Made by a program: the position numbers and the translations under genes
Assembly: GCF_000479045.1 (NCBI RefSeq)
Contig: NZ_KI518173.1
Span: 7,822-71,821, forward strand
Direction: 5' to 3'
Length of the DNA: 64,000 nucleotides
DNA from: Cetobacterium somerae ATCC BAA-474
GTDB taxonomy: Bacteria > Fusobacteriota > Fusobacteriia > Fusobacteriales > Fusobacteriaceae
Shown: piece by piece, positions 1,983 to 53,496 of the stretch
Numbering within the stretch: the stretch's first letter is position 1
Layout: every line of letters starts with the position of its first letter
The notes under the pieces: model-generated
What the model was told of the DNA's origin: nothing
Database searches by the model: none
The model's input: only the letters and a program-made list of their open reading frames with translations

Positions 1983-2041
1983 AAAAAAATCCCACTTACA
2001 AAGAAAATATGACACAATATGTGACGTATTTTCTTCGTAAG
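1983..2041 (-). terminator. Riboswitch-controlled intrinsic terminator before add
   Basis: On the minus strand the arms 2027-2041 (CTTACGAAGAAAATA) and 1995-2009 pair over 15 bp including one G-U. An inner CACA/TGTG pair extends the stem. A short TGGGA and then seven T residues follow. The 5' arm includes the 3' half of aptamer helix P1 (2033-2040), so the two folds are mutually exclusive. Confidence 0.85.
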
Positions 2042-2099
2042 CAGGAATTAAGGTTCCACGGTAGATACCCCTATACCAAATTAATAGGGTTATACGAAG
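2033..2099 (-). promoter_or_regulatory. Purine riboswitch aptamer, predicted adenine-type ON switch
   Basis: Read on the minus strand: P1 CTTCGTA/TACGAAG, P2 CCCTAT/ATAGGG with loop TAATTTGGT, the conserved junction TATCTACC, and a P3 region ending TTCCTG. This is the purine-riboswitch fold. Aligned by P1, the specificity position in J3/1 (U74 in Bacillus numbering) is U, which predicts adenine rather than guanine. Ligand binding would hold P1 and block the downstream terminator, turning add on. The P3 helix is weak (bulge or mismatch), so the exact alignment is a little uncertain. Confidence 0.85.
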
Positions 2100-2124
2100 G
2101 GCTTTTATATAATTTATTCCGTAT

Positions 2125-10334: not shown

Positions 10335-10645
10335 TAAAAAAAGTAGAGGGCAACCATCACAAATCCCTCTACTTCACTATTAAAACTTAATCACCTTCTA
10401 ATAACTTTAAAACTTGTAAAAATTTTCTTTTAAATCTCTTAAAAATAAAATAGTTTACTGACTTTAAATCTATTACTTCATATAATAGTTAGAATAACAA
10501 CTTCATAATTAGTTAAAACTCTTTAAAAATTTAAACATATTTCTAAATATTAAAACTTTATTGAAACTGTGTGATGGTTATTTTTTACAATATTTACAAA
10601 TTGCTACAAAATCCTTTTCTACTTTCTAACTATTATTATATTAAT
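10335..10645 (-). ncRNA. Candidate structured non-coding RNA, copy 1
   Basis: This fills most of the 10228-10682 gap. On the minus strand it aligns along its whole length with 50590-50895. Its 5' part carries ATAATAGTTAGAA (10624-10636), which pairs with TTCTAACTATTAT (10482-10494), a 13-bp helix closing about 130 nt. Its 3' end is a strong terminator (stem 10342-10350/10365-10373, then T7). The terminator loop UGUGAUGGUU (10352-10361) is complementary over 10 nt to AACCAUCACA at 1070-79 of the same kilobase (10570-10579). A TATAAT-like -10 lies at the 5' end; the -35 is poor. No conserved reading frame was seen. Confidence 0.65.
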
Positions 10646-10682
10646 TAGACGTTTTTTGATAAGAAAAAAGTTTTGAATTTTT

Positions 10683-29993: not shown

Positions 29994-30015
29994 ATTATTA
30001 TAAAACTAAATAAAA

Positions 30016-30166
30016 GTTTTTAGGTGCTTAGGCATAACAAGGAAGTAGGTGTAAATCCTACACAGCCTCCGCTACTGTAATGAGGATGAAACTATATAAC
30101 CACTGGAATAAAATCTGGGAAGGATAGGAGTAAAGTGATTCTAAGTCAGGAGACTTACCTAAAAAC
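30016..30166 (+). promoter_or_regulatory. Cobalamin (B12) riboswitch aptamer
   Basis: P1 is GTTTTTAGGT (30016-30025) paired with ACCTAAAAAC (30157-30166). Conserved core blocks are present: GCCTCCGCTACTGTAATG and the B12 box AAGTCAGGAGACTTACC (30143-30159). This is the class I cobalamin riboswitch layout. With promoter and terminator it fills the 29955-30270 gap. Confidence 0.93.
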
Positions 30167-30197
30167 TACACAAAATTGTTAGGAGTGGACAAGTGTG

Positions 30198-50589: not shown

Positions 50590-50895
50590 AATAAAAAAAG
50601 TAGAGGGCAACCATCACAAATCCCTCTACTTCACTACTAAATCACCTTTGAATAACTTTAAAACTTTCAATCATTTCATTTAAAAATTAAAAAACTTCTT
50701 AAAAATAAATTAATCTACTAACATTTAAATCTATTTCCTCAATATAATAGTTAGACAAAACAACTTCATAATTTGTTAAAACTTTTTAAAAACTCCTCCT
50801 TTTAAAAATTAAAACATCTTTGAAACTGTGTGATGGCTATTTTTACTGCTTTAAATATTTTTCTATCTTCTAACTATTATTATAATTATTAGACG
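50590..50895 (-). ncRNA. Candidate structured non-coding RNA, copy 2
   Basis: On the minus strand it aligns end to end with 10335-10645, with many substitutions but conserved blocks: AAACGTCTAAT, ATAATAATAGTTAGAA, CCATCACACAGTTTC, GTTTTAAC, ATTATGAAGTTGTT, CTAACTATTATAT, GATTTAAA, and AAAGTTATT. The long-range helix is kept: ATAATAGTTAGA (50869-50880) with TCTAACTATTAT (50744-50755). So is the terminator stem (50599-50607 with 50622-50630, then T7). The loop UGUGAUGGUU pairs with AGCCAUCACA (50829-50838) with one G-U, a compensated change against copy 1. It lies between unrelated genes, so it is an independent transcript. Confidence 0.65.
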
Positions 50896-50934
50896 TTTAT
50901 TTCTTAAAAAAAAGTTTGAAAAAATTTAAAATAC

Positions 50935-51024
50935 AAAAAAGGGAAAGAGCCTCTGGGGGGATAGAGGCTCTTTTGGGGGGATTAAATTATTTATTATTTT
51001 TTAACACTTATTAATAATATTTAG
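50935..51024 (-). ncRNA. Candidate short C-rich small RNA
   Basis: On the minus strand a promoter-like TTTACA-N16-TATTAT (about 51015-51042) is followed by an AU-rich stretch, then AATCCCCCCA. A hairpin AAAGAGCCTCT / AGAGGCTCTTT comes next, its loop being ATCCCCCC, then CCC and T6. Predicted length is about 75 nt. Two C6 runs, one single-stranded and one in the loop, are very unusual in this AT-rich DNA. They resemble C-rich seed motifs of Gram-positive small RNAs that pair with ribosome sites. The three C residues between stem and T run make the terminator imperfect. Confidence 0.45.
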
Positions 51025-51114
51025 ACAACAGGTTTTGTAAAAAAGTTTTAATTTTTTAAAAAATTAAATCAAAATACTTTCTCACAGGAATAGTTTCTTT
51101 AGAATGTTATTATA

Positions 51115-52052: not shown

Positions 52053-52125
52053 TAAAAAAGTAGAGGGCAATTATCACATAATCCCTCTACTCAATACTGA
52101 GTTACCTTTGAATAACTTTTAAACG
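52053..52125 (-). repeat. Third, 3'-only copy of the structured RNA repeat, overlapping the mocR end
   Basis: On the minus strand AAAGTTATTCAAAGGT, a short spacer, and the terminator AGTAGAGGG...CCCTCTACT-T6 (52059-52091) match the 3' ends of the RNA at 50.6 and 10.3 kb. The terminator loop reads ATTATGTGATAATTG, keeping UGUGAU of UGUGAUGG. Here the unit supplies the last codons (...LKVIQR), the stop codon and the terminator of the MocR gene. Confidence 0.7.
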
Positions 52126-53496
52126 ATCAATACCATCTATAATTTCTGGAATATCTGTAGTTGCAAATCTCACTCTGAAATATTGATTTTTCTGATTATC
52201 TAAAAAGAAAACATTTCCAGAAAGAAGTAGAATATTATTCTCTTTACATTTTAAGTAAAATTGGCTCGAATCTATTGTATCATTTAGTTTTATCCAAACA
52301 TAAAAACCACCATCAATATTATAAACAACATCTAAAAAAGGTATCTCTTTTAGTTTCTCAGTTAAAACGAGATATCTTTCTCTATAAATTTTGATTAGAT
52401 TTTCTATATGTAATTTCAGAAAATTGCCTTTCAAAAAATTAGCTAAAACTTTTTGATCAAGAGCTGATGTTGATATATCTGTGGTAAACTTAACAGTCAC
52501 TATTTTAGAAATAAGCTCAGTTGGTGCTATCATATATGCTAATCTTAAACCTGGCATAATTATTTTAGAAAATGATTTAATGTAAATAACAGTCTTATTA
52601 TCAGAATCTAAAGATTTTATAGAGGTTCTTGGAGTATTGTAAAATGAAAGTTCTGATGCAAAATCATCTTCTACAATCAATGTGTTATATTTTTTAGCTA
52701 ATAAAATTAACTTTTGTTTCTTTTCTTCACTCCAAGAAACACCTGTGGGGCAACTAAAATCCATTGTCGCATATATGAAAGTTATTTTTTCTTCAGATAA
52801 GATTTTTTCCAATTGAGTAAGATTAAAACCATCCTCTTCCATTTCTACAGGGTAAATTTTACAATTTGTTTTAAAAGTATTTAAAGCACCATGATAAGTT
52901 GGATTTCCTACAATTATTTTATTTTTTCTTTTAGACGAAAGCGTTTTTAATATCAAATCCAATCCTTGCTGTGAACCGCTAGTTATTTGTATCTCATCTT
53001 TAGATACAAAAATACCTTTGTCTTCAATATTTTTCTTAAGCACTTCTCGAAGTTCCTCTAAACCTTGAGTAGGATGATATAGCATAATTTTAGGGCCATA
53101 TTCTTCTAAAACATCACTATATAATTTTTTAAAAATTTGAAATGGATAAACATCTTCTGAAGGAGTTCCACTTGCAAAATTAATAAGATTATTTTGTTTT
53201 AATTGACCAACTTTAAAAGTTTCAATAAGATTATTAGATGGTGTATTGTAAAATAAAGATTCTTTAGATTTTACAAATATTCCAATGCCACGTTTTTTTA
53301 TAATATATCCCTCTTTTTCTAAAAGAGTAAAAGCTTTCATAATTGTAATATTATTTAGTTTATACTTTAAAGCAAGTTGTCTAATTGATGGTAGTTTAGA
53401 GTTTTCTGGATATTCATTTTTTTCAATTTTATTTTTCAAATCTTCATAAATTTTTAAATAAATAGGTATTTTCTTCTCTTCTGAGTTAATTTTCAT
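52102..53496 (-). CDS. MocR/PdxR-type regulator (GntR helix-turn-helix fused to aminotransferase fold)
   Basis: 464 residues. GntR winged helix at 10-75 (LKIYEDLKNKIEKNEYPENSKLPSIRQLALKYKLNNITIMKAF) followed by a class I aminotransferase-like domain with PTQGLEELREVLKKNIE, SGSQQGLDLILK, VEDDFASELSF and the PLP Lys in YIKSFSKIIMPGLRLAY. MocR proteins bind PLP and regulate B6, GABA or amino-acid genes. It is divergent from an AlaX-type gene with ACTGTTATA direct repeats between. Its 3' end lies in the dispersed RNA repeat. Confidence 0.9.
   Translation of the reverse strand: MKINSEEKKIPIYLKIYEDLKNKIEKNEYPENSKLPSIRQLALKYKLNNITIMKAFTLLEKEGYIIKKRGIGIFVKSKESLFYNTPSNNLIETFKVGQLKQNNLINFASGTPSEDVYPFQIFKKLYSDVLEEYGPKIMLYHPTQGLEELREVLKKNIEDKGIFVSKDEIQITSGSQQGLDLILKTLSSKRKNKIIVGNPTYHGALNTFKTNCKIYPVEMEEDGFNLTQLEKILSEEKITFIYATMDFSCPTGVSWSEEKKQKLILLAKKYNTLIVEDDFASELSFYNTPRTSIKSLDSDNKTVIYIKSFSKIIMPGLRLAYMIAPTELISKIVTVKFTTDISTSALDQKVLANFLKGNFLKLHIENLIKIYRERYLVLTEKLKEIPFLDVVYNIDGGFYVWIKLNDTIDSSQFYLKCKENNILLLSGNVFFLDNQKNQYFRVRFATTDIPEIIDGIDRLKVIQR

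Follow-up and report, generated by a model that had tools for sequence, protein, structure and literature searches.

A putative sigma-E-dependent family of multicopy structured small RNAs in Cetobacterium

The window analyzed here, a 64-kb stretch of DNA, is part of a 72.8-kb contig (G000:C118) of Cetobacterium (Fusobacteriota), a fish-gut bacterium. On its minus strand it carries two copies of an RNA element of ~290–300 nucleotides (nt), termed the long small RNA (long sRNA) below, and, immediately upstream of copy 2, a short sRNA gene resembling FoxI of Fusobacterium nucleatum (Table 1). The region around copy 1 showed 99% identity to a 231-kb C. somerae plasmid. An earlier note on this DNA had reported that the two copies align end to end, lie between unrelated genes, and have no reading frame in common, and all of this was borne out. 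The copies aligned over their full extent on the minus strand, and a BLAST search of the own genome gave 77% identity (E 2.8e-67). The flanking genes were varied and unrelated among the copies. The longest open reading frames (ORFs) comprised 2–37 amino acids (aa) and varied in frame and strand, and the length of most indels was not a multiple of 3; a small-ORF reading was rejected. The base just before GAAGUUG was A, G, or T (ATG, GTG, or TTG), and never C, in the copies examined; the frames that follow span 3–12 codons and are not conserved, so they are probably not translated. At the sequence level the long sRNA has the features of a short non-coding transcript with an intrinsic terminator, and every feature named in the earlier note was present where stated. 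The conserved block starts further upstream, however, with the promoters, and that note had missed both the extracytoplasmic function (ECF)/sigma-E-type promoter and the FoxI-like gene preceding copy 2, from which the regulatory setting of the RNA can be read.

The own genome contains 4 copies of the long sRNA by BLAST. Combined BLAST and pattern searches, the latter with a conserved 24-nt block and up to 3 mismatches, yielded 29 copies of ~260–360 nt; of the 12 Cetobacterium genomes, 10 had between 1 and 6 copies each. Near-full matches were 66–81% identical to copy 1. Copies were located on plasmids as well as on chromosomes (1.9-Mb chromosomal contigs, e.g., G002:C1 and G006:C1). The pattern was absent from all 49 genomes of other Fusobacteriaceae genera, and among 84,980 species genomes scanned, matches came only from Cetobacterium, the one genus from which the family is known so far. 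One locus (L081, G002:C3:70155-70280) is a decayed copy, in which the promoter and the 3' strands of helices P1 and P2 are gone and the terminator and internal strand are kept. In Rfam 15 the element had no match at gathering level and nothing credible at E ≤ 1; the covariance-model search placed it in none of the Rfam families (6S, tmRNA, RNase P, SRP, riboswitches, OLE/GOLLD/ROOL, etc.), in agreement with the earlier note, which had not recognized it as tmRNA, RNase P, 6S, or SRP RNA. Literature searches found no description of Cetobacterium sRNAs. Several copies per genome, many of them plasmid-borne and some beside Mob genes, might point to a mobile or decayed element (insertion sequence, retron, or plasmid-maintenance RNA) that merely spreads. 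However, copies that are 66–81% identical have preserved promoter and structure, several lie at chromosomal sites, and none contains an ORF. A phage collection gave no match, and the conserved 22-mer had no match in viral contigs. We therefore consider a spreading element hardly credible. By its sequence, the long sRNA is a stand-alone, non-coding, multicopy RNA gene, and we have high confidence that the family is a real one.

The closing helix reported earlier (12–13 bp, about 130 nt enclosed) was recovered as P1, which encloses 129 nt in copy 1 and 113 nt in copy 2. In a consensus fold built from 22 copies, P1 joins the 5'-terminal bases of the RNA to a strand located ~110–130 nt further on; the fold also comprises P2 (ACAGUUUCA/UGAAGUUGU), which contains a short helix P2b, and the terminator. 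Pair counting gave 98% paired cells compared with 39–55% in slid controls. Double changes were found at 4 pairs (0 of 500 shuffles) and lie in the terminator, where GC changes to AU, and in P2b. Within the 22-copy set, P1 exhibited G-U variation only. In the divergent copy L080, P1 is ACAGUAGCUAGA/UCUAGCUACUGU instead of AUAAUAGUUAGA/UCUAACUAUUAU, a difference of three compensatory pairs; this helix was read directly from the sequence, because MAFFT misaligned L080. The predicted P1, P2b, and terminator are supported by these compensatory changes. A third hairpin, P3 (alignment columns 232–266), was 94–96% paired without double changes and is not claimed.

The earlier note had also pointed to a 10-nt complement between the terminator loop and an internal strand. 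In copy 1, the loop UGUGAUGGUU matches AACCAUCACA over 10 Watson-Crick pairs, and in copy 2 it matches AGCCAUCACA with one G-U. The 10-nt match of copy 1 was reached in 0 of 1000 dinucleotide shuffles, and the 8-nt Watson-Crick match of copy 2 in 7 of 1000. With G-U pairs allowed, a loop match in a single copy was not unusual (66 of 500), so the case for pairing rests on conservation. The 7-bp core CCAUCAC/GUGAUGG was intact in 25 of 25 copies compared, and the positions flanking it form A-U, G-U, or, in L017 and L018, G-C pairs. In L024, outer pairs are lost on one side, and by inspection gains are possible on the other (UGUGUGAUGG with CCAUCACACA). In the orphan terminator of the window, which has the same origin and no internal strand, the loop has drifted to UGUGAUAAUU; this single case is what would be expected if the partner strand holds the loop in place. 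We regard it as probable that the loop pairs with the internal strand, within one molecule or across two. The covariation check proposed earlier gave compensatory changes in the long helix; covariation does not bear on the pairing core, which never varies. The kissing-site role suggested for the loop is possible and agrees with the intact core and the drifted orphan loop.

In another reading, the pairing is a terminator-loop switch. The loop complement is transcribed first, and when copy 1 is folded as a nested structure of minimum energy, a long-range helix replaces the terminator hairpin; this alternative fold joins the internal strand/loop helix with the 5' segment GUAGAAAAGG. As an attenuator, AACCAUCACA and GUAGAAAAGG would compete with terminator folding and control readthrough into downstream sequence. 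We regard this as very unlikely, since the flanking genes vary among copies with no conserved co-directional downstream gene seen, and divergent copies have not conserved the GUAGAAAAGG segment. In many copies, though not in divergent ones, GUAGAAAAGGAUUU is similar to the 5' strand of the terminator, GUAGAGGGAUUU.

Upstream of the long sRNA, the putative promoter AAACTTTT-N14-CGTCTAA was kept in nearly all full copies. The own genome encodes an RpoE-like ECF sigma factor of 150 aa, and its gene has AAACTTTTTTAAGAATTTTGTAGTCTAA directly upstream. At the rpoE loci, AAACTTTTT...GTCTAAAA was kept in 10 of 10 Cetobacterium genomes found to carry rpoE. Such boxes before rpoE are what one would expect if the ECF sigma factor regulates its own gene. 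The long sRNA promoter has the -35 and -10 boxes of the host sigma-E at a spacing 1 bp longer than that of rpoE. Within the window, AAACTT-N-GTCTAA occurred only before the FoxI-like sRNA and the two long copies; a looser match, with AACTT, falls within a coding region. On the G006 chromosome, the pair AAACTT...GTCTAA gave a clear peak at spacing 16, with convincing matches before rpoE, the long sRNA, and short RNAs that contain UUUAAUCCCCCC and a C-run terminator hairpin. From these boxes we conclude with good confidence that the long sRNA is probably under sigma-E control.

The most serious competitor of this conclusion is a housekeeping structured RNA, transcribed by sigma-70 and acting by structure or protein binding (as a scaffold or in a ribonucleoprotein, RNP), for which the CGTCTAA block would be incidental. 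The TATAAT-like sequence of most copies would fit it, the invariant long block CCAUCACACAGUUUCAAAGAUGUU and the tied ends are features that RNP-type RNAs typically show, and a target signal was absent in the G006 prediction. Yet no sigma-70 -35 is conserved, whereas the -35/-10 pair is conserved at ECF spacing and common to rpoE, and multiple plasmid copies would be unusual for such an RNA. Copy L080 lacks TATAAT but has kept the ECF boxes (CGTCAAA). Its covariation starts at ACAG, which places the transcript start upstream of the TATAAT position and fits the CGTC(T/A)AA box better than a sigma-70 TATAAT. The TATAAT-like sequence that follows the -10 box thus probably does not serve as the promoter, and a housekeeping role appears improbable. 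The earlier proposal of an independent, selected, structured RNA is supported by the conserved promoter and terminator, the conservation across the family, the missing ORF, and the compensatory changes seen in the terminator, in P2b, and in P1 of L080.

In F. nucleatum, which lacks Hfq and ProQ, FoxI and FoxJ are sigma-E-dependent sRNAs, and the promoters of foxI, foxJ, and rpoE have common motifs (PMC11005410). In FoxI, a C-stretch is located in a linear region (PMC11005410). The short sRNA upstream of copy 2 has such a linear C-stretch, and the FoxI-like short sRNAs resemble FoxI as described there in this feature and in their sigma-E-type promoter (PMC11005410). The corresponding pattern, with the same promoter, had 51 matches in 7 Cetobacterium genomes, up to 12 in one, and 1 match in another Fusobacteriaceae genus, compared with 0 for the reversed-pattern control. 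A relaxed pattern gave matches in that same other genus (G024–G027). In 3 of its genomes, the short RNAs form tandem pairs (e.g., L210 and L214), have C-runs, and are preceded by AACTT...GTCTAA promoters; they are likely what this genus has in place of FoxI. On the plasmid records examined, the FoxI-like sRNAs are unannotated.

A FoxI-like sRNA lies within 1.5 kb at 7 of 29 long sRNA loci (about 5 independent), compared with 0.22 expected. Co-localization and the common promoter might suggest that the long RNA is a sponge or modulator that titrates its FoxI-like neighbors by base pairing. However, its complementarity to the FoxI-like sRNA was no better than that of shuffles for both copies, and its only G-run, in the terminator stem, becomes GGA in L035 and L024, with the partner strand changing too. 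The sponge reading therefore has a very slim chance. The long sRNA shares with FoxI a sigma-E-type promoter common to rpoE, a stand-alone gene, an intrinsic terminator, and a host in the Fusobacteriaceae without Hfq and ProQ; this comparison was made with the description of FoxI and not with its sequence. It differs from FoxI by its length of ~300 nt, the missing C-run seed, the long closing helix, the terminator-loop pairing, its multiple copies, and its detection in Cetobacterium only. With FoxJ it would share sigma-E control, reported for FoxJ (PMC11005410) and predicted from the promoter sequence for the long sRNA. FoxJ is ~156 nt long, has its C-stretch in a hairpin loop, and lies upstream of ylmH, whereas the long sRNA has ~300 nt, no C-run, and varied, unrelated flanks. 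By length, C-run, and context, the long sRNA is neither FoxI nor FoxJ.

Qrr, csRNAs, LhrC, and AbcR are families of sibling sRNAs (PMC4211561). Like these, with several related sRNA genes per genome and one regulator, the long sRNA occurs in up to 6 homologous genes per genome; unlike them, it is much longer, its terminator loop would pair with the 5' domain, and copies are plasmid-borne. The proteobacterial MicA, RybB, and VrrA offer an analogy in mode of working only, as an RpoE-driven non-coding arm against envelope proteins. These three sRNAs act together with Hfq. No matches to Hfq or ProQ were found in the genus Cetobacterium. The long sRNA is best called a new, previously undescribed family, functionally akin to sigma-E-dependent and sibling sRNAs.

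Taken together, we consider it likely that the long sRNAs are siblings acting in trans under the control of sigma-E, and that they are the longer companions of the FoxI-like sRNAs in a genus that lacks Hfq and ProQ. Several observations weigh against this interpretation. The AAACTT-GTCTAA spacing of the long sRNA is 17, 1 bp above that of rpoE and most FoxI-like genes (16), and the TATAAT-like sequence overlaps the start region in most copies. The pseudoknot core is invariant, the double changes in P1 all come from the one divergent copy L080, and z-scores of single-sequence folding were modest (-2.1 and -1.0). Target prediction by duplex energy at the 5' ends of 1694 G006 genes did not rise above shuffled controls. 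A candidate target, GUGAUGG in the rpoE operon, was rejected, as it was not conserved in G005 and G010. Confidence in particular targets is low. Of all segments, the near-invariant one around CCAUCACACAGUUUC is the strongest candidate for an interaction surface, and base pairing appears more likely as the mode of action than protein binding, its main rival.

In the mechanism we propose, RpoE would transcribe the long sRNA genes from AAACTTTT-N14-CGTCTAA up to the intrinsic terminator. The first transcribed bases would form P1 and the terminator loop would pair back on the internal strand at CCAUCAC, drawing both ends into one compact fold. This fold may stabilize the RNA without Hfq or ProQ and may mask or display the conserved strand. 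Under envelope or oxygen stress, several long copies would be induced together with the multicopy FoxI-like C-rich sRNAs, by analogy with FoxI and FoxJ in F. nucleatum (PMC11005410), and would act in trans at the post-transcriptional level, most likely by base pairing with mRNAs of envelope proteins. It is possible, but rather unlikely, that the loop pairing is a functional switch or lock that keeps the invariant CCAUCAC seed hidden or produces a closed, stable scaffold; the RNA would then be an auto-inhibited or chaperone-independent stress sRNA with the 3' terminator as its own regulatory antisense arm, and plasmid copies would set the dose of the sigma-E response.

The long sRNAs would give Fusobacteriota a second class of sigma-E-type sRNA, of larger size, FoxI and FoxJ being the only ones described for the phylum in the literature found. 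The FoxI-like sRNAs appear expanded in this fish-gut genus, with up to a dozen genes. Without Hfq and ProQ, the genus needs other means to stabilize and deploy sRNAs, and a terminator loop tied to the 5' domain is a testable answer. Multicopy stress sRNAs borne on plasmids would let plasmids tune the stress response of the host.

Table 1. Coordinates of the long sRNA copies and associated features in the window
Feature	Position	Strand	Remarks
ECF (sigma-E)-type promoter, copy 1	10645..10674	-	-35 AAAACTTTT, -10 CGTCTAA; conserved in nearly all full copies, boxes common to rpoE
sRNA gene, copy 1	10336..10639	-	from alignments; start inferred (~2 nt) from -10 box and helix P1, end at terminator T-run
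Helix P1 5' strand, copy 1	10624..10636	-	13 bp with 10482..10494
Helix P1 3' strand, copy 1	10482..10494	-	pairs with 10624..10636
Internal pseudoknot strand AACCAUCACA, copy 1	10570..10579	-	within near-invariant block CCAUCACACAGUUUCAAAGAUGUU
Helix P2 5' strand ACAGUUUCA, copy 1	10562..10570	-	partner 10497-10505
Helix P2 3' strand UGAAGUUGU, copy 1	10497..10505	-	partner 10562..10570
Intrinsic terminator, copy 1	10343..10372	-	loop UGUGAUGGUU at 10352-10361, pairs with 10570-10579
ECF (sigma-E)-type promoter, copy 2	50889..50917	-	
sRNA gene, copy 2	50593..50883	-	
Helix P1, copy 2	5' strand 50869..50880, 3' strand 50744-50755	-	12 bp
Internal pseudoknot strand AGCCAUCACA, copy 2	50829..50838	-	
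Terminator, copy 2	50600..50629	-	loop UGUGAUGGUU at 50609-50618
ECF (sigma-E)-type promoter of FoxI-like sRNA	51021..51048	-	in tandem upstream of copy 2
FoxI-like short sRNA	50935..51015	-	linear C-run AAUCCCCCC at 50975-50983, then terminator hairpin with C-run loop at 50947-50970; fold z -4.8
Relic, family 3' end/terminator only	52054..52124	-	now 3' end of gene 52102-53496; loop drifted to UGUGAUAAUU

The gene that now ends in the relic terminator is of the GntR/aminotransferase type, and the relic loop no longer matches CCAUCAC. The window also holds a cobalamin riboswitch (30005-30176, plus strand) and a purine riboswitch (2018-2117, minus strand), both at Rfam gathering level.
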